64,000 bases of DNA from Jonesia denitrificans DSM 20603 (lineage in GTDB: Bacteria > Actinomycetota > Actinomycetes > Actinomycetales > Cellulomonadaceae), in contig NC_013174.1 of NCBI RefSeq assembly GCF_000024065.1, forward strand, positions 1,240,001 to 1,304,000. The letters are read 5' to 3'. The notes beneath the pieces were generated by a model. That model saw only the letters and a program-made list of their open reading frames with translations. It was not told the origin of the DNA and ran no database searches. Shown here piece after piece: positions 4,123-42,531 of the stretch; position 1 is the stretch's first letter, and every line of letters starts with the position of its first letter. A program made the translations under genes and the position numbers.

Positions 4123-4818
4123 GTGACCACCCATCAGAGCAACGCCAATGGCACGCTACGCATCGGCGTGACAAGTGCTTTGCTTGTGGCGTTGGCTGCA
4201 GGGGCGCACGTCTTGGGTGGGGGAGCACTCCATGTGAGTGCCGCCGTGATCGTCGCAGTCATCGTTGCTTTTCTCATCACCATCGTGACACGGGTGTCAC
4301 CGTTTGTTTCCACTGCCTGGGTGGCACAGTGCGTCACCGCGCTCGCGGCAGTGATGACCCAGTGGGCAGCCCACGCAGTGTTCTCCCTGATGCCACCTGC
4401 ACCGGTTCACACCAGTGAACTGGGCGGACACCTCGGCCAGGTGGTTCCTGTGGGAATGAGTTATGGCCATCATGCCCATGATGGGGCCATCACCGTGCCG
4501 CTTCCACCCCTGCAGGACATCCACAGTGGTGACCATAGTTCCCCATTCATGGTCGTGACACACAGCGCGGCAGCAATGATCACGGTATGGGTCCTGGCTG
4601 ACATTAATCGGGCGCTGACCCCATTGGGCGCGCTCCTCGCATCCCTATTGACTGCGCTCGTGTGGATCATACGGTTAGCGCCATTGCCGCACGCTGCCAC
4701 CGTGAAAATCACGACAAGCGCTCACACAGGAAACGCTGGTAGGCGTCACTCGCGCCACCATCACCGACGCGGTCCACCACAACTGACACACCTGGTCATT
4801 GCCATCGCACGCACCTAA
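4123..4818 (+). CDS. Membrane protein with histidine-rich loop and tail, unknown function
   Basis: Encodes 231 residues from a GTG start. Helices are visible at about residues 12-30, 35-55, 62-85 and 148-185. The long extramembrane segment between helices 3 and 4 contains SYGHHAHDG and HSGDHSS, and the C-terminus contains RRHSRHHHRRG, both plausible metal-binding stretches. It directly precedes a PCuAC copper chaperone and a DyP peroxidase, so a role in envelope copper handling is a reasonable inference, but no known family was recognised. Confidence 0.6.
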   Translation: MTTHQSNANGTLRIGVTSALLVALAAGAHVLGGGALHVSAAVIVAVIVAFLITIVTRVSPFVSTAWVAQCVTALAAVMTQWAAHAVFSLMPPAPVHTSELGGHLGQVVPVGMSYGHHAHDGAITVPLPPLQDIHSGDHSSPFMVVTHSAAAMITVWVLADINRALTPLGALLASLLTALVWIIRLAPLPHAATVKITTSAHTGNAGRRHSRHHHRRGPPQLTHLVIAIART

Positions 4819-9425: not shown

Positions 9426-9743
9426 ATGCACTGGATCATTCTTGTCATCTCCGGGACACTCGAAGCGCTCTGGGCGACAGCGCTCGCAGATAGCGACGGT
9501 CTACGCCACCGCCGCGCCACGCTCGTCTTCATTGTCTCTGTCCTTGCCTCCACCGCAGGACTTGCCTACGCCATGACTGCCATCCCCACCGGAACCGCCT
9601 ACGCGATCTGGGTGGGTATTGGTACAGTCCTCACGGTTGTTGTCGCCGTGATACGACGCAGCGAAACCCTGACCTGGGTCAGAGCCCTACTCCTCCTGGG
9701 AATCGTCGCCGGTGTGGTGGGGTTAAAGGTGGCCTCATCATGA
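9426..9743 (+). CDS. SMR-family guanidinium exporter subunit 1 (Gdx/SugE-like)
   Basis: A 105-residue four-helix small multidrug resistance protein. The essential glutamate is in SGTLEALWATAL (about residue 13), and PTGTAYAIWVGIGT in helix 3 is characteristic of the Gdx/SugE branch rather than EmrE. ATG 9426 follows AGGA placed just outside the riboswitch. The stop overlaps the start of a second SMR gene, so the products probably form an antiparallel heterodimer. Export of guanidinium in exchange for protons is inferred from the upstream riboswitch and the Gdx signature. Confidence 0.88.
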   Translation: MHWIILVISGTLEALWATALADSDGLRHRRATLVFIVSVLASTAGLAYAMTAIPTGTAYAIWVGIGTVLTVVVAVIRRSETLTWVRALLLLGIVAGVVGLKVASS

Positions 9744-17943: not shown

Positions 17944-18482
17944 AGACCGGGTTCGGTGGTGGGGTGGTATTGCATCACGTGGTCGCAGTGAAGTCCGTGC
18001 CCGACCTGCATTGTTTTGGTGCCTACCGGTGTGAAGCCGCACCGCAGATAAAACTGATGTGCCCGCACGTTGTGTTGATTGACCGCGAGCCACAGACTGT
18101 CAGCGCCGTGACCGCGTGCATTGCTCACGGTAGCGGCCATAAGGCGCTTCGCAGTTCCGGTCCCATGCAGTGATGGTGAAAGGTAGAACTTACTCACATA
18201 CCCTGTTTGGTGCCCTTGAACCCCAAAACTGGGGTCAGGGGCACCGGCGTGTTTCGTCAGGACAAGGGAGTACCCGACAACGCGAATGCCGGCAGCGCAC
18301 ACCACAATGTGGGCGTCGTCCCTGGTCAGATAGTCAGTGAAAGAGGGAGTCCCTAATTGGTCAGCAATGAACGCGTCAATATCTGCCCGTGGGGTTCCTG
18401 GTGGACACGCTAACGGGAACGTGGCGGCAGCAACCTCGACAAGACGTGCGCAGTCGCTGAGGTGGGCACGACGAATGATCAC
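17940..18482 (-). CDS. GNAT-family N-acetyltransferase
   Basis: A 180-residue acetyltransferase with the acetyl-CoA loop (GYVSKFYLSPSLHGTGTAKRLMAATVSNARGHG; Q/RxxGxG/A is read as LHGTGTA) and the C-terminal LWLAVNQHNVRAHQFYLRCGFTPVGTKTMQVG typical of RimI/PhiNT-like GNATs. The substrate is not predictable. GTG 18482 is preferred over GTG 18488 because AGGG lies seven bases before it. It converges on and slightly overlaps the thi operon and is divergent from the mutasome, with the LexA box between them. Confidence 0.82.
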   Translation of the reverse strand: MIIRRAHLSDCARLVEVAAATFPLACPPGTPRADIDAFIADQLGTPSFTDYLTRDDAHIVVCAAGIRVVGYSLVLTKHAGAPDPSFGVQGHQTGYVSKFYLSPSLHGTGTAKRLMAATVSNARGHGADSLWLAVNQHNVRAHQFYLRCGFTPVGTKTMQVGHGLHCDHVMQYHPTTEPGL

Positions 18483-18593
18483 GACCACACCCTACACCCC
18501 GATACTTGTGCGTCACGGACAGTCCGCTGCACATCAGGCCTGTGAACAGCATGTGTGCATTGCTGGTCTGACGGCGGTATCCTCAAACCATAT

Positions 18594-18609
18594 TCGAACA
18601 CACGTTCGA
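18594..18609. promoter_or_regulatory. LexA (SOS) box controlling the mutasome
   Basis: TCGAACACACGTTCGA matches the actinobacterial SOS consensus TCGAAC-N4-GTTCGA with no mismatch. The dyad extends outward to 12-base arms (18588-18599 and 18604-18615), so the site is an unusually long perfect palindrome. It lies 60 bases before the imuA' start, the expected place for repression until DNA damage. Confidence 0.92.
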
Positions 18610-18669
18610 ATATGGTGGTAGGTTCTTAACCCTCACCACCCCCACAGCGACACCGGTGAGGAGGACCCC

Positions 18670-19398
18670 ATGAGCGCGACAGCCCGGCTTGCCCTTGCCC
18701 GCACGATCTTACGCACCGCCGAAACCCGCCATGGGATCACCACACACACCCCCCAACCTCTTGCCCCCGACCCGCACTACGCCCTCATCGATGCCTTCCA
18801 CCCGCTCGTGGGCACCCACCTTCACCCAGGCGCAATCCACCGCGTCACAGGAGCCGCGAGCATCACCCTGGCGCTCCTGATTGCGGCGAGCCACAACAAC
18901 GCGCGCATCGCCATCATTGGAGCCTCCCACCTCAGCATGGTGGCCGCCCACGACCTGGGGGTTGCCACCCACAATCTCATCATTGTGACTCAACCAGCCC
19001 GGCACACTCCCACCATTGCAGCAGCCTGCATTGACAGTGCCCACATCACAATCCTTGGCCCTCAGGCGGTTCTTTCCCCATCAGAGCACCGCGCACTCAC
19101 CGCCCGACTACGCGAACGCGGTCATGTCCTTGTGACCACCAACCCCCACGCTCACGCCCCCATCATCATGAAGGCGCGCGCACCCACATGGCGCGGCCCA
19201 GAACAAGGGCGCTACCACCTCACCGACGCGAGCTGGTACGTCCATGCCGCCACCAGAACAACAGAACACACAGCCGTCCTTCACCTCGCTCACGGACGCT
19301 TCACCACCACCCCCACCCCAGCTGCACGAAACACCCCACCCCATGTCATCAACCACCCCCACCTCACCCTCGCGCACTCTGGCACTATGGGTGCCTGA
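18670..19398 (+). CDS. ImuA'-like mutasome accessory protein
   Basis: A 242-residue divergent RecA-like protein at the head of a three-gene SOS mutagenesis cassette. Its RecA-fold core is visible in HPGAIHRVTGAASITLALLIAAS and ARIAIIGASHLSMVAAHDLG, but the P-loop lysine seems absent, as expected for ImuA' proteins, which work as scaffolds for ImuB and DnaE2 rather than ATP-driven recombinases. ATG 18670 has a strong GAGGAGGA upstream. The LexA box controls it. Identification rests mainly on context, size and weak fold resemblance. Confidence 0.8.
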   Translation: MSATARLALARTILRTAETRHGITTHTPQPLAPDPHYALIDAFHPLVGTHLHPGAIHRVTGAASITLALLIAASHNNARIAIIGASHLSMVAAHDLGVATHNLIIVTQPARHTPTIAAACIDSAHITILGPQAVLSPSEHRALTARLRERGHVLVTTNPHAHAPIIMKARAPTWRGPEQGRYHLTDASWYVHAATRTTEHTAVLHLAHGRFTTTPTPAARNTPPHVINHPHLTLAHSGTMGA

Positions 19399-21040
19399 CT
19401 GGCCTGTCATCGTTGCGCTCGCCCTTGCCCACCTGCCACCCCACACACCAGCGATCACCGTGTCCGGCACTCGTATCACTGCCGCCTCTGCCTTCGCCCG
19501 CGCAGCGGGTGTGCGCACCACCATGGCTCTGCGTCACGCCCAAGAAACTCTGCCCACCCTCACCTGCCTCCCCACACCACCCACCGACATCCTTGCCCGC
19601 GAACACGAACGCATCGCCCAGGTCCTTGACTCTTTCCTTGCCCACCTGACCGTGCTGCGCCCCGGCCTCACTCTTGCCCCCATTGACGGTGCGCTACGCC
19701 ACTACCCTGACCCGCCAACCTTCCTCGCTGCCGTCACTGATGCGATCACTGACACCACCGGGATAGACCCCTGGGCGGGCATCGCTAACGGCACCCTGCC
19801 CGCTATCCTCGCCGCTCGGCGCGGGCGCATCCTCACCCCCGATGAATCTTTGCCCTTTATCCAGACCCACCCCTTACACACCCTGCGTTACACCACCACT
19901 GCCCCCACCCCCGACCCTGAACTCACTGACCTGCTCGCGTTGTGGGCAAAACTTGGTCTGCACACCTACGCAGACCTCGCCTCGTTGCCACCCACCGATA
20001 TAGCCACCCGATTTGGTGCACGCGGCATGTGGGCATACCACATCGCCATCGGACGGGAAGAACCACTGGTCAGCCAGGACCGTAACGAACCAGATATCAC
20101 GGTCTCCTCCACATTTGACGAACCCCTCCACCGGGCAGATACCGCCGCGTTCTACGCCAAACAGTTGGCCAGCCAGTTACGGGAACAACTCGTGAAACAA
20201 GGATTGAGCGCCTACGAACTCCGGGTATCTGCCCGCACAAATGAACGGATACTGACCCGCACCTGGCGTGCAGACCCCACCATGGTGGGAGCACTGAGCG
20301 AACACGCCATCACACAACGGGTGCGCTGGCAGTGCGATGGGTGGCTCAGCGCATCGGCGATCTGCCCGCATACCCCAAAGGTGGGACCGCTTGACATGGT
20401 GGAACTCACCGCAGTTCGAGTGATCCCCGCCGGACACCACCACCCCACACTCTGGGGGGCAGACAACACAGACAACGACCACACCCGGCGCCTCGTGGAA
20501 CGCCTCAGTTCCCTGGTTGGACCTGATGGTGTTGTTGTCCCTCGCATCACAGGAGGACGAACCCCCGCCGACCGAGTGACCTACGTTCCCTGGGATCAGG
20601 AGGTCACAACAACCCATGGCGGTGCGCCACACACCCACGTGAGCGCGCTCGCAGGTGTTGAGGAGTTGCCGTGGCCAGGGCGTCTTCCTGCTCCTGCCCC
20701 GTCAGTGACGGGGGAGCCGGTGAAGGTGTGGGTGCGTGACCCGGCAGGACGTGAGGTGAGAGTAGATGATCTCGGGGCATTGGTGTCTCCGCCCTACCGG
20801 TGGTGCACTGCAGGTGTTCCTCTTCCAGGCACTGAACACGTCAGTGGGGGAGTGGGGGATCATACGGTCACTCAGTGGTCAGGTCCATGGGTGCTTTCTC
20901 CTGCCTGGTGGGCCATGTCATCGTCCTTTGATTCGCCAGGGGAGTCGCAGGCTTACCTGCAGTTAATGAGTGATTCTCATCCGCCCATTATGGTGGTTCT
21001 CCGCGGGCGCACCTGGTGGTGGGAGGGGACTTATGAGTAG
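19343..21040 (+). CDS. imuB: ImuB, Y-family polymerase-like mutasome protein
   Basis: A 565-residue DinB/UmuC-fold protein. It starts TLALWVPDWPVIVALALAHL where active Y-family polymerases have a DxDxFFAxxE motif, so the first catalytic acidic residue is lacking; ImuB proteins are catalytically inactive hubs binding the beta clamp, ImuA' and DnaE2. Little-finger and C-terminal regions follow (VRWQCDGWLS, LDMVELTAVRVIPAGHH). ATG 19343 lies inside imuA' and overlaps it by 56 bases; no better start exists because the family motif begins within the overlap. Codon use changes abruptly at 20645. Confidence 0.9.
   Translation: MSSTTPTSPSRTLALWVPDWPVIVALALAHLPPHTPAITVSGTRITAASAFARAAGVRTTMALRHAQETLPTLTCLPTPPTDILAREHERIAQVLDSFLAHLTVLRPGLTLAPIDGALRHYPDPPTFLAAVTDAITDTTGIDPWAGIANGTLPAILAARRGRILTPDESLPFIQTHPLHTLRYTTTAPTPDPELTDLLALWAKLGLHTYADLASLPPTDIATRFGARGMWAYHIAIGREEPLVSQDRNEPDITVSSTFDEPLHRADTAAFYAKQLASQLREQLVKQGLSAYELRVSARTNERILTRTWRADPTMVGALSEHAITQRVRWQCDGWLSASAICPHTPKVGPLDMVELTAVRVIPAGHHHPTLWGADNTDNDHTRRLVERLSSLVGPDGVVVPRITGGRTPADRVTYVPWDQEVTTTHGGAPHTHVSALAGVEELPWPGRLPAPAPSVTGEPVKVWVRDPAGREVRVDDLGALVSPPYRWCTAGVPLPGTEHVSGGVGDHTVTQWSGPWVLSPAWWAMSSSFDSPGESQAYLQLMSDSHPPIMVVLRGRTWWWEGTYE
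20645..20655 (+). other. GCGCTCGCRGG motif at a composition break (imuB)
   Basis: GCGCTCGCAGG lies in codons 435-438 of imuB (read A-L-A-G). Upstream to about 18.65 kb the plus strand uses mostly C or A at third positions; just downstream G and T dominate (for example GGTGTTGAGGAGTTGCCGTG). The function is unknown; see findings. Confidence 0.5.
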
Positions 21041-24000
21041 TCCTCGGTACGCGGAGTTACATGCTCATTCCACCTACAGTTTCCTTGATGGGGCCTCAAG
21101 CCCGGCCGAGTTTGTTGCTGAAGCTGAACGGTTAGGGTTATCGGCGTTGGCGTTGACGGAACACAACGGGTTGTACAGTGCGGTGCAGGTAGCAACTGCA
21201 GCGAAAGACACGGGTGTGCGCACTGTTTTTGGCGCGGAGGTGAGTGTCACGCCAGCTGATGCGCCTGAACCCGTTGCTGGGCATCGTGACCCGCAAGCGG
21301 ACCATCTGGTGGTGTTGGCTCGCGACCCGCGCGGGTATCGGGCGTTATCGCATGCATTGTCTTTGGCGCACTTGGCAGGTGGCGCCAAAGGGCGCACCCA
21401 CCACACATACACGTCATTGGCTGATCAGGGTGATGACCAGTGGGTGATTCTCGCAGGGTGTCGAAAGAGCCCGATTCTTCGCGCGCTACAGCGTCAGGGA
21501 CATGACGCAGCGTTAGAGGTGGCCCATGACCTCGCGCAGAGGTTTGGGCGACAAAACCTGGTCATTGATTGGGTGCGGCGGGGGACCGCCTACGACGATG
21601 CGTTAGGCGATGCGGTAGAGCGTGTAGCCCAAGAGGCGAAGATCGCGCTGATTGCCTCCACCAACGCCCACTATGCGCACCCTCGTGACCACCGGCGTGC
21701 TGAGGTGCTGTCAGCATTGGGTGCAGGAAGAACCCTGGCAGACAACGACCCATGGCGGTTAGCTTCACCCACCGCACACCTACGGTCAGCACGTGACATG
21801 GTGCGCCTGCACGCTAGGCGCCCCCACAGTGTTGATGCCGCTGCCCGTCTTGCTGATGAGCTCGCGTTTGACTTCGATGTGGTTGCCCCACGGTTACCGC
21901 CCTACCCGGTTCCCGCCGGACACGACGAATCCACGTGGTTGCGTCACCTGACTGATAACAAAGCCCGCCGTGTGTATGGCACCAGGGACACCAACCATGC
22001 TGCGTGGCAGCACATTGACCATGAACTTTCCATCATCACGAGTTTAGGATTCGCCGGGTACTTCCTCATCGTTCACGACATCATGGAGTTTTGTTCCACC
22101 CACAACATTCTTGCCCAAGGGCGAGGATCAGCGGCGAACTCCGCTGTCTGCTACGCACTGGGCATCACCGCTGTGGACGCTGTCCGCCACGGGTTACTGT
22201 TTGAACGGTTCCTTGCCCCAGAACGTGATGGACCACCAGACATCGACATTGACATCGAATCGGGTCGCCGCGAAGAAGTCATCCAACACGTGTACACCCG
22301 GTACGGTCGCCATCATGCGGCCCAGGTCGCCACAGTCATCACCTACCGTCCCCGTCTCGCTGTGCGTGACGCAGCCCGAGTGTTGGGGTACCCCATCGGG
22401 CAAGTCAACGCATGGAGCAAAACCATTGATCGTTCCTTTCGCCCCGACACACCCCCAGGAACCCCAACCACACCAGATCACACCTCAGACCTGCCCGCCC
22501 CCACCACACAGCCACCCACCCCTCATGATGGACGCGCCGACCTCCCACCTGCCGTGCGTGACACCGCATCGCTTCTTCACAACCTTCCCAGACATTTAGG
22601 TATCCATTCCGGAGGAATGGTCCTGTGTGATCGCCCCGTCACCCACGTGTGTCCCGTGGAATGGGGGACAACCCCCGGTCGAACCGTCCTGCAATGGGAC
22701 AAAGAAGACTGCGCGGATGCAGGACTCGTCAAATTCGACCTCCTCGGCTTGGGGATGCTCACCGCACTGCGCATCGCTTTTGACCATGTTGCAGCCACCA
22801 CCAACACCGCACTGGGCCTATACACCCTGCCCCCAGAAGATCCCGGCGTATACGAACTCCTCCAAGCAGCCGACACTGTCGGTGTATTCCAAGTCGAATC
22901 CCGCGCCCAAATCTCCACCCTGCCCCGACTCAAACCCACCTGCTTCTACGACATCGTCATTGAAGTCGCCCTCATCCGCCCCGGCCCCATCCAAGGCGGC
23001 TCCGTCCACCCCTACCTCCGTCGCCGCCAAGGACGCGAACCAGTGACCTACCCCCACCCCCTGCTCAAACCCGCCCTGGAAAAAACCCTCGGCATCCCCT
23101 TATTCCAAGAACAACTCATGCAGATCGCCATTGACGCCGCCGGGTTCACCCCCGCAGAATCTGACCAACTACGACGCGCCATGGGATCCAAACGCTCCAC
23201 CGCCCGCATGGAAGCGCTGCGTACCCGCCTCCTTGACGGCATGGCCCAACGCGGGATCCCCCCACACGCCAGCACAGAAATCTACGAACGCCTCAAAGCC
23301 TTCGCCGACTTCGGATTCCCCGAATCCCACGCCTTCTCCTTCGCACACATCGTCTACGCCAGCGCTTACCTCAAACGCCACCACCCCGCAGCCTTCTACA
23401 GTGCACTCCTTGCCGCACAACCCATGGGTTTCTACAGCCCACAATCCCTCATGAACGACGCCCGGCGCCACGGCCTGACCATCCACCGCCCCTGCATCGC
23501 CACATCCACCATCACCGCCCATCCCACCCCCAACACCCCCCAACCACACCCACCACAACACAACCCCCACACATTCCACACACCCGCCTCAGCACGCTAC
23601 GTGCCCCTGCCCACCACCCACGCCATCCAACTCGGACTGACCGACATCCACACCATCACACCCACCATCGCACAACGCATCATCACCGCCCGCACCACCA
23701 CCGCTTTCACCGACATCAACGACCTTGCCTACCGTGCCGAACTCACCACCACTCAACTCGAAGCCCTCGCCGCCGCGGGAGCCCTACGCACCCTGGGAAT
23801 CACACCCAGACAAGGCATCTGGGCTGCCGCAACTGCCAGCAAAAATACCCCCCACACCCTGCCCGGCCTCACCCCCCACCACATACCAGCCCTGCCCCCC
23901 ATGACCGCCCACGACACCGCCCACGCCGACTACTGGTCCACCCGCATCACCCCCAACACCTACCCCACCCAACTCATCCGCCCCCACCTCACCGCACAAG

Positions 24001-24314
24001 GCATCCTCACCGCCCATCAAGTCAACACCCACGAACCCAACAGACGCGTCACCACCGCTGGCATCGTCACTCACCGCCAACGCCCCCCAACAGCCCACGG
24101 CATCACCTTCCTCTCCCTTGAAGACGAAACCGGCATCATCAACGTCATCTGCCCCATCACCATCTGGAACAGACACCGCACCACCGTACGCACTGCCCAA
24201 GCCCTCATTGTTCGCGGTAGAGTAGAGCACGCAGATGGGGCAACCAATCTCCTCGCAGAACACATCTCACCCCTCAACCTAGGAGTGGCCAGCACCTCAC
24301 GAGACTTCCGCTGA
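21033..24314 (+). CDS. dnaE2: Error-prone DNA polymerase DnaE2 (ImuC)
   Basis: A 1093-residue C-family polymerase performing translesion synthesis with ImuA'/ImuB. A PHP domain opens the protein (YAELHAHSTYSFLDGASSP, LALTEHNGLY); the polymerase core has FLIVHDIMEFC, QGRGSAANSAVCYALGIT and PDIDIDIESGRREEVIQ with the catalytic aspartates, then LFQEQLMQIAIDAAGF and an HhH/OB region (LEDETGIINVI). ATG 21033 overlaps the imuB stop and follows GGGAGGGG; upstream in-frame sequence is imuB. The short C-terminus lacking tau-binding segments separates it from replicative DnaE1. Codon use grades from mixed at the 5' end to extreme C/A at the 3' end. Confidence 0.95.
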   Translation: MSSPRYAELHAHSTYSFLDGASSPAEFVAEAERLGLSALALTEHNGLYSAVQVATAAKDTGVRTVFGAEVSVTPADAPEPVAGHRDPQADHLVVLARDPRGYRALSHALSLAHLAGGAKGRTHHTYTSLADQGDDQWVILAGCRKSPILRALQRQGHDAALEVAHDLAQRFGRQNLVIDWVRRGTAYDDALGDAVERVAQEAKIALIASTNAHYAHPRDHRRAEVLSALGAGRTLADNDPWRLASPTAHLRSARDMVRLHARRPHSVDAAARLADELAFDFDVVAPRLPPYPVPAGHDESTWLRHLTDNKARRVYGTRDTNHAAWQHIDHELSIITSLGFAGYFLIVHDIMEFCSTHNILAQGRGSAANSAVCYALGITAVDAVRHGLLFERFLAPERDGPPDIDIDIESGRREEVIQHVYTRYGRHHAAQVATVITYRPRLAVRDAARVLGYPIGQVNAWSKTIDRSFRPDTPPGTPTTPDHTSDLPAPTTQPPTPHDGRADLPPAVRDTASLLHNLPRHLGIHSGGMVLCDRPVTHVCPVEWGTTPGRTVLQWDKEDCADAGLVKFDLLGLGMLTALRIAFDHVAATTNTALGLYTLPPEDPGVYELLQAADTVGVFQVESRAQISTLPRLKPTCFYDIVIEVALIRPGPIQGGSVHPYLRRRQGREPVTYPHPLLKPALEKTLGIPLFQEQLMQIAIDAAGFTPAESDQLRRAMGSKRSTARMEALRTRLLDGMAQRGIPPHASTEIYERLKAFADFGFPESHAFSFAHIVYASAYLKRHHPAAFYSALLAAQPMGFYSPQSLMNDARRHGLTIHRPCIATSTITAHPTPNTPQPHPPQHNPHTFHTPASARYVPLPTTHAIQLGLTDIHTITPTIAQRIITARTTTAFTDINDLAYRAELTTTQLEALAAAGALRTLGITPRQGIWAAATASKNTPHTLPGLTPHHIPALPPMTAHDTAHADYWSTRITPNTYPTQLIRPHLTAQGILTAHQVNTHEPNRRVTTAGIVTHRQRPPTAHGITFLSLEDETGIINVICPITIWNRHRTTVRTAQALIVRGRVEHADGATNLLAEHISPLNLGVASTSRDFR

Positions 24315-24344
24315 CCCCCACCCGCCCACCAACAGTCTGGACAG

Positions 24345-25403
24345 ATGCCCGTGCTCGGACCCGTAGCGGCCTACCTGCCCACGCCGCGCAACCCCCAAGG
24401 ACGACTCAACGTTGACGTCCTCCAACGCCTCACCACCCGCGCCACCCGCCACGGCGCCCACTCCATCGCGGTCCTCGGCTCCGTGGGAGGCGCCCCCTAC
24501 ATGCCCCGAGCCATGCGCAAAAAAACCATCCAAGCCGCAGCTGAGGTCACCACAGACACCAACACCCCACTCATCGCAGGCATCGGCGCACTGAACACCG
24601 CCGAAGTCCTCGCCAACCTCGAAGACGCCTACCACGCAGGAGCCACCGCAGCCCTCCTGCAACCCATGGCCTACCACCCACTCCTCGACACCGAAATCCA
24701 CACCCTGTACGCCACCATCACCGACATCACCCCCATCCCCATCTGGATTTACAACAACCCACGCACCACCCAACACCACTTCAGCGCCCTGCAACTGGCC
24801 GACCTCGCTCACCTTCCCAACATCGGCGGATTCAAAGACCGCGCAGCCAACCCCAGCGACATCACCCACCGCATCAACCTCATCACCCGCCACACCACCC
24901 ACACCACCCTCGACTTTGGTTTCTCCGGTGAAGACAAAGGCGCCGACATCCTCCTCAACAACGCCCACACCTGGCATTCCGCGCTCGCGGGGATCATGCC
25001 TGAGCTCACTCATGAGATTGCGGGCGCAGCGATGGCAGGCCGGGACGATGAGAGCGCTGCAGAGTATGCCCGGTCGTTGCAGAAGGCGTTAACCCCACTG
25101 ACCGTCATTTTTGGTCAGTATGGTGGGATCCGTACTGTGCATGCGATCGCGGAACACCGGGGCATGGATTTGGGGGAGTTACCCTCACCGCTTGGGCCCA
25201 TGCCAAGTGCAGCCCAAGGGCTGTTGTCGGTGGCGCTGCGGTCCTTAGAAAGAGCCCACGAGTCGTTGACGTTACGCGCGCAAACAGCAGAGACCAACGC
25301 TGTTCCGCGTGAAGGGGGACGACGCGCGGGACGAAACGTGAACACGGCCAAGGAGCCTACGCGCGCTTCGACAAGCGAATATGTTCCGCGCCGGGCCCGG
25401 TAA
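24345..25403 (+). CDS. DapA-superfamily (dihydrodipicolinate synthase-like) aldolase, substrate unknown
   Basis: A 352-residue TIM-barrel protein of the DHDPS/NAL family. The Schiff-base lysine is in IGGFKDRA and the conserved tyrosine in PIWIYNNPRTT. The substrate-binding GTTGE of true DapA is replaced by LGSVGGAPY, so dihydrodipicolinate synthesis is unlikely. The last 50 residues are a basic, low-complexity tail (EGGRRAGRNVNTAKEPTRAS) unusual for the family. It follows dnaE2 by 30 bases but its role is probably unrelated. Codon use breaks sharply at codon 213. Confidence 0.82.
   Translation: MPVLGPVAAYLPTPRNPQGRLNVDVLQRLTTRATRHGAHSIAVLGSVGGAPYMPRAMRKKTIQAAAEVTTDTNTPLIAGIGALNTAEVLANLEDAYHAGATAALLQPMAYHPLLDTEIHTLYATITDITPIPIWIYNNPRTTQHHFSALQLADLAHLPNIGGFKDRAANPSDITHRINLITRHTTHTTLDFGFSGEDKGADILLNNAHTWHSALAGIMPELTHEIAGAAMAGRDDESAAEYARSLQKALTPLTVIFGQYGGIRTVHAIAEHRGMDLGELPSPLGPMPSAAQGLLSVALRSLERAHESLTLRAQTAETNAVPREGGRRAGRNVNTAKEPTRASTSEYVPRRAR
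24981..24991 (+). other. GCGCTCGCRGG motif at a composition break (dapA-like gene)
   Basis: GCGCTCGCGGG covers codons 213-216 (A-L-A-G). The preceding kilobases are almost free of third-position G and T, while the next 30 codons are full of them (CCTGAGCTCACTCATGAGAT). It is the sharpest of the five breaks. Confidence 0.5.
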
Positions 25404-27912: not shown

Positions 27913-28024
27913 AGGTGACCTGCGATCATTGGGATCGCGGCGCGGTTAACAATCTAGCACGACCAGTAGGGTTCCTGTCGAATCTGAACAGTGTGCTGTA
28001 GGTTACGTCCAGGTGTGGGTAACA

Positions 28025-30142
28025 ATGGGGGACATGAGCGCACACATCAACGACCTTGATTCGCCATTCGCCACCGATTCCTCCCTCCCTTTTGCGTTAC
28101 CCAACTTCGCTGCGTTGACCACCGCTGACTACGAACCAGCGATCAGAGCGGGCATCGCTGCAGAACTCGCAGAAATTGACGCCATCGTTGCGCAGAATGA
28201 CCCACCAACCGTGTCCAATACCCTCGACGCGTTTGAAACCAGCGGGCAACTCCTTTCCCGTGTGATGAGCGTGTTCGACAACGAACTGTCATCCAACACC
28301 AACGAAGAACTCGATGACCTCGACGAACGCCTCGCCCCAGTGCTGTCAGCACACCACGACGACATCTACCTCAATGACGCTCTGTACTCCCGGTTACGGT
28401 CATTGGAAGAAATTTTGCGTCACAACGATGCTACGCACGGAACTGAACACCACACCAGCGCCGATACCGAAGCACGCTACCTGCTGTCCACAACCCTCAG
28501 AGACTTTGTGCGAGCCGGCGTGGAACTCAGTGACGACAAGAAACAACAACTGCGCACCCTCAACGAGCAAGCAAGCACCCTAGAATCAGCTTTTGGGCGC
28601 ACACTGCTCGCAGGAACCAACGCCGCAGCGATCCTGGTGACCAACGAAACAGAACTTCAAGGAGTGCCCGACGACGTGCGTGCAAGTGCGGCCGCTGCTG
28701 CACGCGAACGTGGACACGACCAAGGGTGGCTCCTGGAACTACAACTACCAACCGTGCAGCCCATCCTCGCCCACGTGGCCTCCCGCACGTTACGGGAAAA
28801 AATCCACCGCGCATCGGTCAACAGGGGACTAGGCGGGGAACACGACACCCGCCAGATCTTGCTTGACCTGGTGCGAGTACGCGCCGAGATCGCCCAACTC
28901 TTAGGCTACGAGCACTGGGCAGCGTACGTGGCAGAAGACTCAACTGCCGGCACAACACCAGCGATCAACGACATGCTGACAAGTCTCGTTGCCCCCGCTG
29001 TGCGCAACGCCCGCCGCGAAGCTGAGGTGCTCACGCAGGCGTTACGCGACGAACTCCACGACGACACCGCACACCTCCAACCCTGGGACTGGACCTACCT
29101 CAGCGAAAAAGTCAGAGCACGCGACTACCAACTTGACGACGCAGCACTACGCCCCTACCTCGAACTTCACCGGGTGGTCCACCACGGTGTATTCGCTGCT
29201 GCCACACGGCTTTACGGCATCACCTTCCACCAACGCGACGACCTTAAGGGCTACCACAACGATGTCGTGGTCTACGAAGTACACAACGCCGATGGGTCAC
29301 CCCTAGGACTGTTCCTCGCCGACTGGTACACCCGCGACACCAAACGCGGCGGGGCCTGGATGAACAACCTTGTTGAACAATCCTTCCTCCTGAACCACCA
29401 CCCCGTTGTCGTCAACAACCTCAACATCACACCGCCACCGGCCGGGCAACCCACCTTGCTCACCTGGGATGAAGTCATCACCCTCTTCCACGAATTTGGG
29501 CACGCACTGCACGGCCTATTCGCCCAATCACACTACCCCTCCCACTCAGGTACCCAAGTGCCCCGCGACTTCGTCGAATTCCCCTCACAAGTCAACGAAA
29601 TGTGGGCCTGGGACCCCGAACTCCTCCACAACTACGCCGTGCACTACCACACCGGCGAACCACTACCCCAACAATGGATCGACACCCTCATCGCCACCCG
29701 ACAATTCAACGAAGGATTCGCCACCACCGAATACCTCGCCGCCGCCATCCTTGACCAAGCCTGGCACCAACGACAACCCCACGAACTGCCCACCAACCCA
29801 GCCGACGTTGAAGCATTTGAACACGCGGCCCTCACCGCCGCTGGAATACAACTAGACCTGGTGCCACCACGCTACCGTTCCACATACTTCAACCACATTT
29901 TCGCCGGCGGATACTCCGCCGGATACTACTCCTACATTTGGTCAGAAGTCCTCGACGCTGACACCGTCCAATGGTTCCACGACAACGGTGGAGCAACACG
30001 CGCCAATGGCGACCACTTCCGCACCACACTGCTCGCACCAGGCGGAAGCGCCAACTGCCTGAGCACATACCGCACCTTCCGCGGGCGTGACGCACACCGC
30101 GAACCCCTCCTGACCAGACGCGGACTACTCGACAACAACTAA
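28025..30142 (+). CDS. M3-family zinc metallopeptidase (peptidyl-dipeptidase Dcp-like)
   Basis: A protein of about 705 residues. The zinc motif is LFHEFGHALHGLF with the third ligand in the following EFPSQVNEMW helix, and the C-terminal RYRSTYFNHIFAGGYSAGYYSYIWSEVLDAD is the substrate-binding segment of the Dcp/oligopeptidase A group. There is no signal peptide, so it is cytosolic and likely degrades short peptides, possibly proteasome products. ATG 28025 (AGGTG about nine bases upstream) and ATG 28034 are both possible. Codon use shifts to extreme third-position C/A through the gene. Confidence 0.92.
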   Translation: MGDMSAHINDLDSPFATDSSLPFALPNFAALTTADYEPAIRAGIAAELAEIDAIVAQNDPPTVSNTLDAFETSGQLLSRVMSVFDNELSSNTNEELDDLDERLAPVLSAHHDDIYLNDALYSRLRSLEEILRHNDATHGTEHHTSADTEARYLLSTTLRDFVRAGVELSDDKKQQLRTLNEQASTLESAFGRTLLAGTNAAAILVTNETELQGVPDDVRASAAAAARERGHDQGWLLELQLPTVQPILAHVASRTLREKIHRASVNRGLGGEHDTRQILLDLVRVRAEIAQLLGYEHWAAYVAEDSTAGTTPAINDMLTSLVAPAVRNARREAEVLTQALRDELHDDTAHLQPWDWTYLSEKVRARDYQLDDAALRPYLELHRVVHHGVFAAATRLYGITFHQRDDLKGYHNDVVVYEVHNADGSPLGLFLADWYTRDTKRGGAWMNNLVEQSFLLNHHPVVVNNLNITPPPAGQPTLLTWDEVITLFHEFGHALHGLFAQSHYPSHSGTQVPRDFVEFPSQVNEMWAWDPELLHNYAVHYHTGEPLPQQWIDTLIATRQFNEGFATTEYLAAAILDQAWHQRQPHELPTNPADVEAFEHAALTAAGIQLDLVPPRYRSTYFNHIFAGGYSAGYYSYIWSEVLDADTVQWFHDNGGATRANGDHFRTTLLAPGGSANCLSTYRTFRGRDAHREPLLTRRGLLDNN

Positions 30143-30160
30143 CCCCCAACCACCAACCCC

Positions 30161-30191
30161 GCGCAGGGCACCACAACACGGTGCCCTGCGC
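30161..30191 (+). terminator. Hairpin between M3 and M20 peptidase genes
   Basis: GCGCAGGGCACC (30161-30172) pairs with GGTGCCCTGCGC (30180-30191). Only CTTCG follows rather than a U-tract, so efficiency is uncertain. Confidence 0.6.
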
Positions 30192-30224
30192 TTCGCCGTC
30201 ACAACAACCACCCATCATGAGACA

Positions 30225-31553
30225 ATGACCCACATGATGGAAGCCAGCCCCCAAGCCCTCACCGAAGTCGTCACAATCTGCCAAAACCTCCTGCGCATCG
30301 ACACCTCAAACTTCGGTCACAACCAAGCACGGGGCGAACGACAAGCCGGCGAATACGTCATGGAACTCCTCACAGAAGTCGGACTCGACGCCGAACTCTA
30401 CGAATCGTCACCAGGACGCACCAACGTCGTCACACGCATCCCAGGAGCCGACCCCACCCGCCCAGCTCTCGTCGTCCACGGACACCTTGACGTCGTCCCC
30501 GCCCAAGCAGACGAATGGACCGTCCCCCCATTCGCCGGAGAAATCATCGACGACATGCTCTGGGGACGCGGCGCAGTAGACATGAAAGACATGGTCGCCA
30601 TGATCCTCGCCGTCACCCGCGACCTCACCCGCCACAACATCACACCACCACGCGACCTCATCATCGCAATGTTTGCCGACGAAGAAGCAGGCGGAGAATA
30701 CGGAGCCCACTGGTCCGTCACCCACCGCCCCGACCTCTTCGAAGGCGCCACCGAAGCACTATCAGAAGTCGGCGGCTACTCCACCACAATCAACGGACAC
30801 CGCGCCTACCTCCTCCAAACGGCAGAAAAATCCCTCGGCTGGCTCCAACTCATCGCCCACGGAACAGCCGGCCACGGATCCCAAACCATCACCGACAACG
30901 CCGTCACCCACCTCGCCAACGCCCTCACGCGCATCGCCAATCACAACTGGCAGTACCACATCACCCCCACCCTCAACGCCCTCCTCGCCGGAGTCGCCGA
31001 CCTCACCGGACTGCCTTACGACCCCAACGACCCCCACACCATCGACACCCTGATCACCGCACTAGGCCCCACCGCCAAATTCGTGGCCCCCACCATCCGC
31101 AACACCGCCAACCCCACCCAACTCACCGCCGGATACAAAGCCAACGTCATCCCACGAACCGCCACCGCCGTCATCGACGCCCGATTCCTCCCCGGCCACG
31201 AAAAAGCCGGACTCGACACCCTCAAAGAACTCGCCGGACCCCACATCACCATCGACCCCATACTCATTGCCCGAGCCGTCGAATCACCCCACAACTCCAG
31301 CCTCGTTGACCACATGTCCAACGCCCTCACCCACTACGACCCCAACGCCACCGTCCTGCCCTACATGCTCTCCGGCGGAACCGACAATAAATCCCTGGCC
31401 GAACTCGGAATCACCGGCTACGGATTCGCCCCCCTCCAACTCCCCGACACCCTCGACTTTCCCGCCATGTTCCACGGAGTCGACGAACGCGTCCCCATCT
31501 CCGCCCTCCACTTCGGAGTCAACGTCCTCACCCGCCTCCTCCAACAGTGCTAA
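30225..31553 (+). CDS. M20-family zinc peptidase
   Basis: A 442-residue M20/M25/M40 exopeptidase. Metal ligands are seen in ALVVHGHLDVVPA, GRGAVDMKDMVAM and FADEEAGGEYGAHW (the catalytic EE), and a dimerisation domain runs from about residue 200. The last metal histidine is in MFHGVDERVPISALHFGV. The closest groups are carboxypeptidase G2-like and DapE-like dipeptidases; the substrate is not certain. The ribosome binding site is weak. The gene is among the most C/A-polarised in the window. Confidence 0.9.
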   Translation: MTHMMEASPQALTEVVTICQNLLRIDTSNFGHNQARGERQAGEYVMELLTEVGLDAELYESSPGRTNVVTRIPGADPTRPALVVHGHLDVVPAQADEWTVPPFAGEIIDDMLWGRGAVDMKDMVAMILAVTRDLTRHNITPPRDLIIAMFADEEAGGEYGAHWSVTHRPDLFEGATEALSEVGGYSTTINGHRAYLLQTAEKSLGWLQLIAHGTAGHGSQTITDNAVTHLANALTRIANHNWQYHITPTLNALLAGVADLTGLPYDPNDPHTIDTLITALGPTAKFVAPTIRNTANPTQLTAGYKANVIPRTATAVIDARFLPGHEKAGLDTLKELAGPHITIDPILIARAVESPHNSSLVDHMSNALTHYDPNATVLPYMLSGGTDNKSLAELGITGYGFAPLQLPDTLDFPAMFHGVDERVPISALHFGVNVLTRLLQQC

Positions 31554-31628
31554 CACCAACCGACAACCTCACAACCCAAAACTTCCAAACCTCGTGCAAT
31601 TCCACGCCAACGGCGATAACGTTAGGTC

Positions 31629-31925
31629 ATGACCGTTCATCCGCGTGCCGCCCTCGACCGCTTCATCGCTGCACTCGAAGCACACTATGACGCCGTCTCC
31701 CAACGGCGCGGACCCAACGACCAACTCGTCGACGACGCCTACGACGTCCTCGAAGACGCCTTCGACATCTACGACGAGTCCCTCGCCATCACATACGGTG
31801 AACTCCTTCCCTTCTCCACCATCGACGAAGACGACGACCTCGACGACGACGACGATGAGGATGACGACGACCTCGACGACGACGATGAGGATGACGACGA
31901 CCTCGACGACGAGAACGACGACTAA
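31629..31925 (+). CDS. Small acidic protein with Asp/Glu repeat tail
   Basis: A 98-residue protein. The first 65 residues look like a helical bundle (AALDRFIAALEAHYDAVSQRR, LVDDAYDVLEDAFDIYDESL) and the last third is nearly pure Asp/Glu/Leu. It lies between the M20 peptidase and uppP, where many actinobacteria carry a similar short acidic gene. I know of no function. The tail is encoded by an in-frame tandem repeat, so its length may vary between strains. Confidence 0.65.
   Translation: MTVHPRAALDRFIAALEAHYDAVSQRRGPNDQLVDDAYDVLEDAFDIYDESLAITYGELLPFSTIDEDDDLDDDDDEDDDDLDDDDEDDDDLDDENDD
31831..31920 (+). repeat. In-frame 30-base tandem repeat coding Asp/Glu tail
   Basis: About three copies of a 30-base unit made of GAC, GAT, GAG and one CTC codon; the first copy has one extra GAC and the last is partial. 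The unit is a multiple of three, so copy-number change keeps the frame. Confidence 0.8.
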
Positions 31926-31944
31926 CACCACCCCCACACACAGT

Positions 31945-31972
31945 CCTCACCCCACCACGGCGAGGGCTTTTT
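31945..31972 (+). terminator. Rho-independent terminator before uppP
   Basis: CCTCACC (31945-31951) pairs with GGCGAGG (31959-31965) with one mismatch, and TTTTT follows at 31968-31972. Confidence 0.7.
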
Positions 31973-32006
31973 CCATGCCCCAACACTTCGAGGTAATGTA
32001 ACGAGC

Positions 32007-32876
32007 GTGAATTTCTTCGAAGCAGTCGTGATGGGCCTGATCCAAGCCCTCACAGAATTCCTCCCCGTCTCCTCATCAGCACACCTGAGAATCTTCGGAG
32101 AACTCATCGGCTCCAACGACCCAGGAGCCGCCTTCACCGCCATCACCCAAATCGGAACCGAAGCAGCAGTCCTGCTCTACTTCCGCCGCGACATCAAACG
32201 CATCTGCATCCAATGGTGGCTCTCCATACGAGGAGACCACGGAACAGACTGGCGCTCGCGGATGGGCGCTCACGATCATGATGCGGCAATGGGGTGGTAC
32301 ATCGGGTTGGGGTCTATCCCCATTGTGGTGTTGGGGTTGCTACTTGAAGACTGGATTGATACCTCATTTCGCAACCTGTACATCACCGCACTCATGCTCG
32401 CTGTCTTCGGTATTTTTCTGGGTCTCGCCGACAAGTACGGTCAGCATGAGCGCACCCTGAACGAACTCACTCCCAAGCATGCAGTGTTGTTTGGTTTTGC
32501 GCAGGCCATGGCCCTCATCCCTGGTGTATCACGGTCGGGGGGCACAATCACAGCTGGGCTGCTGATGGGGTACACGCGTGAGGCCGCGGCCCGCTACTCT
32601 TTTCTTCTCGCTATTCCCGCTGTCCTGGGGTCAGGTTTTTACAAACTGGCCAAAGCAGCGGCAGCTGATCCTGTCCCAGGAGCGCCTGGGGCGTTTGCCA
32701 CACTTGTTGCAACCCTTGTGTCGTTCTTCGTGGGATACCTTGTCATCATTGCGTTCTTGAGGATCGTGTCCACGTTCTCCTATAAACCATTTGTTCTTTA
32801 CCGTCTCGTCCTTGCCGCCGCCGTTGTGGTGTTCTTGTTGGCGGGAATTCTTCAGCCGATGGGAGTCGTCGCGTGA
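32007..32876 (+). CDS. uppP: Undecaprenyl-diphosphatase UppP (BacA)
   Basis: A 289-residue polytopic membrane enzyme that recycles undecaprenyl diphosphate for cell-wall synthesis. The catalytic region [13 protein letters not shown] and the second motif [17 protein letters not shown] are intact, and eight or so helices are visible. The GTG start directly precedes the family N-terminus [21 protein letters not shown]. It is coupled to mshC by a GTGA overlap. A sharp codon-use break lies at codons 82-85, inside the cytoplasmic loop. Confidence 0.94.
32252..32262 (+). other. GCGCTCGC motif at a composition break (uppP)
   Basis: GCGCTCGCGGA lies in codons 82-85 of uppP, read as (W)R-S-R, a different frame from the imuB and dapA-like sites. 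Plus-strand third positions change from C/A before it to a G/T-rich mixture straight after (for example ATGCGGCAATGGGGTGG). Confidence 0.5.
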
Positions 32877-36675: not shown

Positions 36676-38858
<2,183 letters not shown>

Positions 38859-38921
38859 GTTAGAAGACACAATGTTCCTCCAGGTGAGGTGAGTGGCAAC
38901 CAACAGGGGAGTGAGAGAACC

Positions 38922-40574
38922 ATGACCGAAACCCACAATGACCCTGAAGAACTCGCGCGGCGAGTCGCCTCGTTGTCAGCGCAAAATGAGCGACTCGCGC
39001 AAATCCTTGTCGAAGCGCGCAGTAAAATCGTGGGGCTCCAGCAACAAATCGATGATCTCGCTCAACCCCCCAGCACCTACGCCACGTTTATTCGCTCATA
39101 CTCCGACGGCACCGCTGACGTGATGGTGCAAGGACGGAAAATGCGGCTCACCTCACTGCCCGCCGCCATGGTGTCCACAGCCCGCCCAGGGCAACAAGTA
39201 CGCCTCAACGAAGCAATGGCAATCGTTGAAACAATGACCTATGACCACACAGGGGAGTTAGTCACCGTCAAAGAACTGATCGGAACACACCGCGCCATGG
39301 TTGTCGGACGCGGTGACGATGAACGTGTCGTCAACTTGGCGGGGTCTCTGATCGGACGTGACGGTCCCACGATCCGAACCGGAGATAGCGTCCTGGTCGA
39401 CCTGAAGGCCGGTTACGCTCTCGAAAAGATCGACAAGTCCGAAGTGGAAGAACTCGTCCTTGAAGAAGTCCCACGTGTGGCCTACGAAGATATCGGAGGT
39501 CTTTCCCGGCAAATCGACACGATTAAAGACGCCGTTGAACTTCCCTTCCTCCACCCAGACCTTTACCGTGAACACGGCCTGAAAGCCCCCAAAGGAATCC
39601 TCCTCTACGGGCCACCAGGATGCGGAAAAACACTCATCGCCAAAGCCGTCGCCCACTCACTAGCCCAAACAGTTGGACAAGGAAACAACACCCCTACTGA
39701 CGACACACGCGGCTACTTCCTCAACATCAAAGGTCCAGAACTCCTCAACAAATACGTCGGAGAAACCGAACGCCAAATCCGGCTGATCTTCACCCGCGCC
39801 CGCGACAAAGCAGCCCAAGGACACCCCGTTGTTGTGTTCTTCGACGAAATGGAATCACTGTTCCGCACGCGCGGAACCGGCCTATCCTCTGACGTAGAAA
39901 CAACGATCGTCCCTCAACTCTTGGCAGAAATCGATGGTGTCGAACGACTCGACAACGTCATCGTCATCGGTGCATCAAACCGTGAAGACATGATTGACCC
40001 CGCGATCCTGCGCCCTGGCCGACTCGACGTAAAAATAAAAATTGAAAGACCAGACGCGGAAGCTGCTCTCGACATCTTCTCCAAATACCTCACCCCCGAC
40101 CTCCCCATCCACCCCGTGGATCTGGCAGAACACGGTGGGAACGCACAAGACGCTGTCACCGCCATGGGGCAACGCGTCGTCGAACACATGTACGCGACCA
40201 CACCGGACAACCAATTTCTCGAAGTCACCTACGCATCAGGCGACAAAGAAACCCTGTACTTCAAAGACTTCAGCTCCGGTGCAATGATCCAAAACATCGT
40301 TGACCGCGCCAAAAAAGCCGCAATCAAAGGGTACCTGTCACACGGAACACGAGGACTACAGGTCGAACACCTCCTCGCCGCCTGCGACGACGAATTCCAA
40401 GAAAACGAAGACCTCCCCAACACCACCAACCCAGACGACTGGGCGCGGATCTCCGGGAAAAAAGGAGAACGCATCGTCTTTATCCGCACCATTGTGCAAC
40501 GCAAAGGCGAAGGGAAAAACCCCACCCCAGCAAAAGCAATCGAGACCCCACACAACACAGGCCCCTACTTGTAA
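38922..40574 (+). CDS. arc: Proteasome-activating AAA+ ATPase ARC/Mpa
   Basis: A 550-residue hexameric unfoldase that recognises Pup and feeds substrates to the 20S core. A coiled coil (about residues 8-45) binds Pup, followed by two OB domains and the AAA module with Walker A GPPGCGKT, Walker B VVFFDEME and RPGRLDVKI. The C-terminus is GPYL, whose penultimate tyrosine matches the gate-opening tail of Mpa (QYL). ATG 38922 is chosen because GGGGAGTGAGAG lies upstream; the longer frame begins in poorly conserved sequence. Confidence 0.96.
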
Positions 40575-40613
40575 ACACCAACGACCCACCCACACCACAA
40601 CGAGGCGACACAC

Positions 40614-42245
40614 GTGACAGTACGCAGAATCATGGGCATCGAAACCGAATACGGAATCACCCAACAAGGCAACCCGCGAGCCAACCCCATGCTCATGTCC
40701 TCACAAATCGTCACAGCCTACCGCGCCGTATCAACCCAAGCACGCCAGCACGCCCGCTGGGACTACATCGATGAAGACCCCCTCGCCGACGCACGCGGAT
40801 TCCGCCTCCAACGCGCCTCAGCACACCCCTCACTCCTCACCGACGACCCCACAACCCCCGCCCCCTCCGGCGACGACCACGGGGTCCACGCCCAACCCTT
40901 AGCCCGCCCCACCACCGAAACCTACGACGACCCCTCCGCCGCAAACGCCATCCTCACCAACGGGGCACGACTCTACGTCGACCACGCACACCCCGAATAC
41001 TCCTCACCAGAAGTCAGCAACCCACGCGACGCTGTTATCTGGGACGCCGCCGGAGAACACATCATGAGGTCCGCCGCACACCACCTCCACCAATCCATGG
41101 GAATCGACCTCCAACTGTACAAAAACAACACAGACGGCAAAGGCGCAAGCTACGGCACCCACGAAAACTACCTCGTCAAACGAGAAGTACCATTTACCGA
41201 CCTCGCAACCTTCCTCACCTCACACTTCGTCACCCGACAGATCTACACCGGCCAAGGACGAGTCGGACTGGGAACCACAGGACAACAACCAGGATTCCAA
41301 ATCTCCCAACGAGCCGACTTCATAGAAGCAGAAATCGGCCTGGAAACAACACTGCGCCGCCCCATCATCAACACCCGAGACGAACCACACGCAGACCGCT
41401 CACGGTGGCGCCGCCTCCACGTCATCATCGGAGACGCCAACGTCATGCACCACCCCACCTGGCTCAAACTCGGAACAACATCACTCATCCTGTGGGTCCT
41501 CGAACACCTCGACAACCACCAAGACCTCCACAACGAACTCGCAGCCCTCACCCTGGCCAACCCCGTCGACACCGTCCACCAAGTATCACGAGACCTCACC
41601 TGCACAACCCCACTCACCCTCACCAACGGCAACCAACTCACCGCAATCGAGATACAACGCCGCTACCTCAACATCGTCACCACTGCCCTCACCCGCCACA
41701 CCAATGACATCGACACCGACACAGCAGAAATCCTCACCGCCTGGGACCACACACTCACCCAACTAACACACGACCCACTCACCTGCCAACGAACCATCGA
41801 ATGGGTCGCCAAATACCGCCTCCTCAACGCCATGCGCGAACGACACAACCTCACCTGGGACCACCCCAAACTCGCCATGATGGACATCCAATGGTCAGAC
41901 GTCCGACCCGAACGCGGACTGTGCCGAACCCTCCAACGCAAAGGACACATCGACACACTCGTCACCGACGACGACATCACCCACGCAATCGGACACCCAC
42001 CCACCGACACCAGAGCCTACTTCCGCGGCGAAGTCATGGACCGCTACCCCCACGTCGTTACCGGAGCAAGCTGGGACTCAGTCATCTTCGACCTCCCCTC
42101 CTCACCCACCCTGCACCGCATCCCCATGACCGACCCATGGCGCGGAACACAAACACACGTCGGAACACTATTCACCCAACACCCCGACCCCACAGAATTC
42201 GTCCACGCACTCATGGGAACACCACCCCCCAACACAACCGGGTGA
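40614..42245 (+). CDS. dop: Depupylase/deamidase Dop
   Basis: A 543-residue carboxylate-amine ligase-fold enzyme. It deamidates the C-terminal Gln of Pup and removes Pup from substrates. The ATP/Mg site begins MGIETEYGI and the catalytic aspartate lies in ARLYVDHAHPEYSSPE. A long insertion at about residues 45-100 (DEDPLADARGF to HAQPLARP) is the Dop loop, absent from PafA and identifying this paralogue. The GTG start follows GAGGCGA. It sits between arc and pup, the usual order, and is extremely C/A-polarised at third positions. Confidence 0.96.
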   Translation: MTVRRIMGIETEYGITQQGNPRANPMLMSSQIVTAYRAVSTQARQHARWDYIDEDPLADARGFRLQRASAHPSLLTDDPTTPAPSGDDHGVHAQPLARPTTETYDDPSAANAILTNGARLYVDHAHPEYSSPEVSNPRDAVIWDAAGEHIMRSAAHHLHQSMGIDLQLYKNNTDGKGASYGTHENYLVKREVPFTDLATFLTSHFVTRQIYTGQGRVGLGTTGQQPGFQISQRADFIEAEIGLETTLRRPIINTRDEPHADRSRWRRLHVIIGDANVMHHPTWLKLGTTSLILWVLEHLDNHQDLHNELAALTLANPVDTVHQVSRDLTCTTPLTLTNGNQLTAIEIQRRYLNIVTTALTRHTNDIDTDTAEILTAWDHTLTQLTHDPLTCQRTIEWVAKYRLLNAMRERHNLTWDHPKLAMMDIQWSDVRPERGLCRTLQRKGHIDTLVTDDDITHAIGHPPTDTRAYFRGEVMDRYPHVVTGASWDSVIFDLPSSPTLHRIPMTDPWRGTQTHVGTLFTQHPDPTEFVHALMGTPPPNTTG

Positions 42246-42333
42246 AACACCAAGAACCACCCCACGCGACCAGACGAAACACCCCAACATACGATTAGAT
42301 TGACTGCACGAACCACTCGCCCAAGGAGGCATC

Positions 42334-42531
42334 ATGGCCGCTCGTGAATACCACCACTCCCACCACAACACCCCCGACGACGACGCGTCCGACACCCCCA
42401 CACCCCCAACAACCAACACCACAGCACCATCCACCCAAGACGTCGACGACCTCCTCGACGACATCGACGACGTCCTCGAAATCAACGCAGAATCCTTCGT
42501 CCGCGGATTCGTGCAAAAGGGCGGACAATGA
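42334..42531 (+). CDS. pup: Prokaryotic ubiquitin-like protein Pup
   Basis: A 65-residue protein, mostly disordered and acidic, ending in SFVRGFVQKGGQ. The GGQ end means Dop must deamidate it to GGE before PafA ligation. The central DVDDLLDDIDDVLEINAE helix is the Mpa-binding segment. ATG 42334 follows AGGAGG at good spacing. The stop overlaps prcB (ATGA), coupling Pup production to the protease. Confidence 0.97.
   Translation: MAAREYHHSHHNTPDDDASDTPTPPTTNTTAPSTQDVDDLLDDIDDVLEINAESFVRGFVQKGGQ

Follow-up and report, generated by a model that had tools for sequence, protein, structure and literature searches.

The window analysed here, a 64,000-nucleotide stretch, comprises bases 1240001-1304000 of a single 2,749,646-bp contig, the length of the published Jonesia denitrificans type-strain genome (PMC3035236). 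It contains dnaE2, encoding an error-prone DNA polymerase, followed by a dapA-like gene. Together with an imuA'-like gene and a DNA-polymerase-IV-like gene, dnaE2 forms a mutagenesis cassette. Profiles along the window show saw-teeth of A+C excess with abrupt ends near 20.6, 25.0, 32.2, 36.8 and 43.3 kb, and one of opposite sign starting at 61.1 kb. Five of these ends coincide with a short directional word. The features are collected in Table 1.

Table 1. Features of the window (window coordinates). Left and right levels are A+C minus G+T on the motif strand, 5' and 3' of the word. Left edges of the plus-strand islands are approximate.
Position	Strand	Feature	Left	Right	Remarks
4339..4348	+	word GCGCTCGCGG	-0.02	0.12	no island
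9480..9489	+	word GCGCTCGCAG	0.17	0.17	no step
18400..20644	+	A/C-rich island 5' of the word at 20645
18670-24314		mutagenesis cassette: imuA'-like gene, DNA-polymerase-IV-like gene, dnaE2			imuA'-like: NF058630 above its cut-off; polymerase-IV-like: below cut-offs; lies inside two islands
20645..20654	+	word GCGCTCGCAG	0.17	-0.15	word 121 bp further on in J. quinghaiensis
20970..24314	+	dnaE2, error-prone DNA polymerase			NF004225 above its cut-off; crossed by the gradient
22000..24980	+	A/C-rich island rising towards the word at 24981
24345..25403	+	dapA-like gene			TIGR00674 below its cut-off; broken in composition at the word
24981..24990	+	Chi-like word GCGCTCGCGG at the break, inside the dapA-like gene	0.39 (1 kb)	-0.10 (1 kb)	word and step shared with J. 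quinghaiensis
28000..32251	+	A/C-rich island 5' of the word at 32252
32252..32261	+	word GCGCTCGCGG	0.28	-0.10	absent with its island in J. quinghaiensis
35748-36644	-	298-aa PDDEXK_1 (RecB-nuclease-like) protein
36676-36850		step of 0.39 at about 36.8 kb			no consensus; best match within 80 bp is 8 of 10
38800..43321	+	A/C-rich island 5' of the word at 43322
43322..43331	+	word GCGCTCGCAG	0.36	-0.05	word and break 2.2 kb further on in J. quinghaiensis
58084..62664	+	1526-aa gene crossing the break at 61144			antisense to the word
61144..61153	-	word GCGCTCGCGG, inside a plus-strand gene	0.41	-0.06	absent with its island in J. quinghaiensis
61154..64000	-	island on the minus strand (plus strand G/T-rich)			runs on beyond the window

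The break in the dapA-like gene and the word at its edge

The sequence-only reading claimed a sharp one-sided break at GCGCTCGCGGG in the dapA-like gene, with a gradient of about 3 kb behind it. This claim is confirmed. Third positions of dnaE2 and the dapA-like gene, from 22000 on, were fitted with a logistic gradient on the left and a constant on the right, scanning 24400-25300. The best change point is 24973 (support interval 24967-24973), within about 10 bp of the motif, with A/C at third positions of about 0.93 just before it and 0.41 after it. The largest 600-bp step in this part of the window is at 24986, and the motif is 24981-24991. The rise over about 3 kb from the dnaE2 start is also visible. 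Misassembly, which that reading named as a possible refutation, is unlikely, since in Jonesia quinghaiensis, the nearest named relative found, the gene is continuous, with the word at the same codons and a step there (left 0.35, right 0.11). The other refutation it named, a sister with the motif but no break, was not met either. Of 7 relatives whose orthologue could be aligned at this place, only J. quinghaiensis has the word, and at least 5 of the others have no step. The sequence-only reading gave no mechanism, and its word had to be trimmed.

The association of steps with the word is more than chance. Of the 7 window steps of at least 0.28, 5 have the exact consensus GCGCTCGCRG within about 25 bp, against 1.7% of 600 random places within 80 bp. 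Over all Jonesia stretches examined, many of them chosen because they contain the motif, 12 of 44 steps have it within 80 bp. The other 32 steps have no exact word within that distance, though several have it within 400 bp. The strong step at 36.8 kb in the window belongs to those lacking the word, and there may be a second, weaker word. The largest step found (0.82), around base 700 of one J. quinghaiensis stretch (L112, on contig C4), also lies without the exact word.

We also searched for the word without presupposing it. In an unbiased 8-mer scan, GCGCTCGC is the top 8-mer for step size in the pooled set and in five stretches chosen without regard to the motif (z 4.2, n=6), and in the window alone it is second to a palindrome with 4 hits. 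In the 33% of the genome examined, which is enriched for stretches containing the motif, it is first of 14,369 strand-collapsed 8-mers (z 12.3, n=201). The flank matters. In both species together, the mean step is 0.173 (n=41) and 0.135 (n=19) when the next base is G or A, but 0.015 and 0.020 (n=6 each) for C and T, and the base after that is mostly G, with step 0.166 (n=53). Hence the consensus GCGCTCGCRG. In J. quinghaiensis a G/T-rich 10-mer family (TGGTGGTCGT and neighbours, 4 to 5 copies) leads the 9- and 10-mer step scan over a set of stretches, but this is probably a repeat. One further stretch that looked like an outlier holds 858 N.

The word across the genome and between two Jonesia species

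The consensus occurs 151 times in this genome (73 plus 78 copies of its two forms). Two copies (2329572 and 2463014) were left out as likely 16S rRNA copies; their flanks are nearly identical, and they show no island, as expected under strong constraint. One of the remaining 149 (2632883) was not included, so 148 were measured. At these the motif strand averages 0.146 (se 0.014) in the 1 kb to the left, i.e. 5' of the word, and -0.023 (se 0.011) in the 1 kb to the right, with left above right at 124 of 148. In 500-bp bins leftward the values are 0.161, 0.130, 0.089, 0.046 and 0.004, and rightward they are about 0. The mean edge is sharper than 100 bp: the last 100 bp on the left is 0.171 and the first 100 bp on the right is -0.021. 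The break is therefore general, although 24 of 148 sites do not have left above right, and some copies have no island or step.

The skew follows the motif strand and not the coding or replication strand. The 17 exact 11-mers in the genome averaged 0.18, 0.19, 0.14 and 0.05 in successive 500-bp bins to the left and about 0 to the right. At these unselected sites (a set of 22 'active' sites was chosen by left skew, so that its amplitudes are inflated), fourfold A+C is 0.721 in the nearest 500 bp left and 0.441 right, G+C is 0.645 and 0.602, and A+G is 0.381 and 0.522. A+C within 500 bp is 0.692 in sense and 0.765 in antisense genes. Our gene caller missed the dapA-like gene because of the skew, and it was added by hand. 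Leading and lagging copies are alike, at 0.146 each. Over the 2 kb following the minus-strand word at 61144, third positions read on the motif strand are 0.93 A/C against 0.48 in J. quinghaiensis.

The two Jonesia species provide a natural experiment. We aligned 224 kb of J. denitrificans and 260 kb of J. quinghaiensis gene by gene (136 of 180 genes with a hit; later counts use hits of at least 45% identity). Words at window 32252 and 61144, and at 69783 and 92406 counted from the window start and lying beyond it, exist only in J. denitrificans. Their left levels are 0.25, 0.40, 0.13 and 0.59, against -0.04, 0.01, 0.01 and -0.03 at the mapped places in the sister. One sister-only word has 0.20 against -0.07. 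Nevertheless, several J. denitrificans and J. quinghaiensis words, such as window 4339 and 9480, show no clear step or no clear contrast between the species. With words classed by distance alone, A+C at fourfold sites is 0.70 in J. denitrificans against 0.51 in the sister at J. denitrificans-only words and 0.72 against 0.46 at sister-only words, and it is about 0.50 in both where neither has a word. Codon positions 1 and 2 shift too: 639 against 384, 287 against 174, and 2275 against 2322 where neither has a word. Four 'strong' J. denitrificans-only sites, also used in these comparisons and in the pair tables below, were picked for visible islands.

Nearly constant G+C with falling A+G, and the pair tables of substitutions, call for transversions as well as transitions. 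A conversion model over both fits best in 3 of 3 pair tables. Transition-only conversion is worse by 10.9, 11.6 and 12.3 log units, transition-only mutation pressure by 15.0, 20.2 and 12.7, and mutation pressure on all four changes by 5.0, 4.1 and 4.3 with one more parameter. With 1.72 substitutions per fourfold site between the species, sites are near saturation, and we regard this as supportive, not final.

Polarity, machinery and the reach of the scar

The word is over-represented and leading-strand oriented, as Chi is. Its two forms have 73 and 78 copies against 24 and 10 of the reversed words; the reversed form of the first contains GCGCTCGCG and is a hard control. Markov order 3 and 5 expectations, scaled from a third of the genome, give about 3- to 6-fold excess, while order 8 gives little excess because it already conditions on the core. 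On the leading strand lie 127 of 151 copies, with the best switch at 1.465 Mb and dnaA at 1.3 kb; the switch points were chosen from the data and judged against shuffles, and the best of 2000 shuffles was 100. Leading-strand polarity and over-representation have been used as Chi criteria, with a warning of false positives in GC-rich genomes (PMC8022716).

Two adjacent ORFs of 1059 and 1103 aa (contig positions 767420-770599 and 770596-773907) carry UvrD helicase and PDDEXK_1 domains. They match solved helicase chains 7sjr_A (E 1.6e-105) and 6ppu_B (E 2.9e-183), apparently M. smegmatis AdnA and AdnB, and we take them as an AdnA/AdnB-like pair. PDDEXK_1 has three hits in the genome, these two and the 298-aa protein in the window. 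NucS (1935086-1935847) has both NucS domains and matches EndoMS structures. A profile search gave no MutS_V hit, although 11 of 14 control genomes gave one, and no RecC hit (among the 14 controls only E. coli gave one), RecB, RecD and AddA not having been searched by their own models. A ComEC-type competence protein is present.

The polar word is wider than the scar. In another genus of the family (G016) 73 of 80 copies are polar with one switch at 2.96-3.13 Mb, where its dnaA lies (3.09 Mb). In a genome from another family of the order (G026) it is 85 of 100 copies examined (of 119), with dnaA 0.2-0.3 Mb from a switch. In a further genome (G027) 39 of 54 is not significant, shuffles reaching 43. 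However, we found the scar only in Jonesia. Around G016's own copies (44-45 of them) the step gave p 0.12 (500 bp) and 0.29 (1 kb). DnaE2-neighbourhood loci of family-level relatives gave a small step (0.028, p 1e-6, n=178), but these are repeated orthologous places, and 17 family stretches taken without regard to gene content gave 0.012 (p 0.15, n=40). By group, the DnaE2 loci gave 0.050 in the Promicromonospora/Isoptericola set (p 6e-5, n=52; the word ranks 6 of 17,481 8-mers), 0.051 in the Sanguibacter/Timonella set (p 8e-4, n=26) and 0.010 in Cellulomonas (p 0.11, n=103; rank 1102 of 18,470); the word ranks 73 of 27,771 in G016 and 13,838 of 19,237 in Acidimicrobiia. Because the independent stretches did not repeat it, we do not claim a scar beyond the genus. 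NucS is in 39 of 39 relatives searched, so what sets Jonesia apart lies elsewhere, perhaps in how often divergent DNA is taken up.

What may have written the skew

We suggest that GCGCTCGCRG is a Chi-like recombination site, most likely read by the AdnAB helicase-nuclease. In this reading the enzyme enters at a double-strand end on the 3' side of the word, unwinds towards it and changes state there, leaving the motif strand as a 3' single-stranded tail that begins at the word and runs 5' for 2-3 kb. RecA would pair this tail with homologous but not identical DNA, and NucS would judge the mismatches. NucS cuts G-G, G-T and T-T in vitro, and in M. smegmatis it rejects oligo-borne G-T and G-G but not C-C, A-A, G-A, C-A, A-C and A-G (PMC11551744). 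Incoming G or T would thus be rejected when the resident base is A or C, while incoming A or C would be tolerated when the resident base is G or T. Put on an invading strand, this rule predicts loss of G and T and retention of A and C, for transitions and for G-C and A-T transversions, which are the sign and classes seen. Repeated over evolution, such strand-biased gene conversion would fill the motif strand 5' of the word with A and C and stop at the word. NucS is also reported to reduce recombination of 90%-identical DNA tenfold (PMC5290159, PMC8228993).

Chi-like behaviour is well supported, and Chi-like function is likely (about 0.8, in our judgement). AdnAB as the reader, strand exchange as the cause, NucS as the judge and divergent kin as the donors are inferred, and we give the whole chain a probability of about 0.5. 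Not all of the evidence favours NucS: with separate forces, a transversion-only model fits slightly better than equal forces in two of three pair tables, whereas NucS is described as weaker on transversions (PMC8228993). If the enzyme comes from the 3' side, a word on that side should intercept it, but such shadowing is weak. The left level against distance to the next same-strand word on the 3' side gives rho 0.24, p 0.003 (5' side rho -0.05, p 0.55), but the step itself gives only rho 0.15, p 0.07, and after dropping sites with neighbours within 3.5 kb p is 0.04 for the left level and 0.40 for the step. This is suggestive only.

The main rival, which we consider less likely, accepts the word as Chi-like but derives the skew from new mutations, by damage of exposed single strand or by error-prone fill-in of the complementary strand (DnaE2/ImuB). 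It shares the geometry and the turnover with the word, the genome has the mutagenesis genes listed in Table 1, and G-T wobble errors in a strand copied from the motif strand would give G to A and T to C on it. Mutation pressure, however, fits the pair tables worse than conversion, although with sites near saturation this is not final, and deamination of the 3' tail itself would lower C on the motif strand, the opposite of what is seen. It is unlikely that the word is instead a nick or double-strand-cut site of an unknown nuclease with repair on one side leaving the skew. The position of the edge would suit such a site, but a cut would expose both ends while the right side is flat on average, and polarity and over-representation fit Chi better.

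An FtsK-orienting (KOPS) or other architecture-imparting role, with islands of another cause, would agree with the strong polarity and with the absence of a detected scar outside Jonesia where the polar word is present. This too is doubtful, since islands end at the word, change with it between species and ignore replication strand, which DNA pumping does not predict. Codon selection, a transferred patch or a chimeric assembly joint might be the first impression from a single gene pair, but we judge them refuted: antisense genes show the skew equally, codon positions 1 and 2 shift too, orthologues run across the break in the sister, and 148 sites show it on average.

Like the Chi sites of E. 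coli (GCTGGTGG, with RecBCD) and those of AddAB, the word is short, over-represented, on the leading strand and one-sided in its effect; it differs in being another word, in a genome with AdnAB and no RecC hit, and in leaving a base-composition scar, the only measure of its activity here. The bias resembles GC-biased gene conversion in pulling synonymous and amino-acid-changing sites alike, but it is strand-asymmetric, leaves G+C content almost unchanged and is tied to a directional word. In a literature search that covered few subscription journals and no bioRxiv preprints, we found no title or abstract describing this word, a Chi for AdnAB, or strand-biased conversion or a lasting strand-specific composition effect by NucS.

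If the NucS step holds, it would be a strand-specific conversion bias that keeps G+C almost constant and pulls amino acids along. The further suggestion, which remains tentative, is that AdnAB has a Chi sequence, GCGCTCGCRG in Jonesia, and that in a NucS cell every Chi-started strand invasion is filtered base by base, so that recombination hot spots write strand-asymmetric A/C gradients into the genome, strong enough to change proteins. Base skew would then become a direct read-out of Chi identity, direction and strength in Actinobacteria, and would offer a way to find Chi words from sequence alone.
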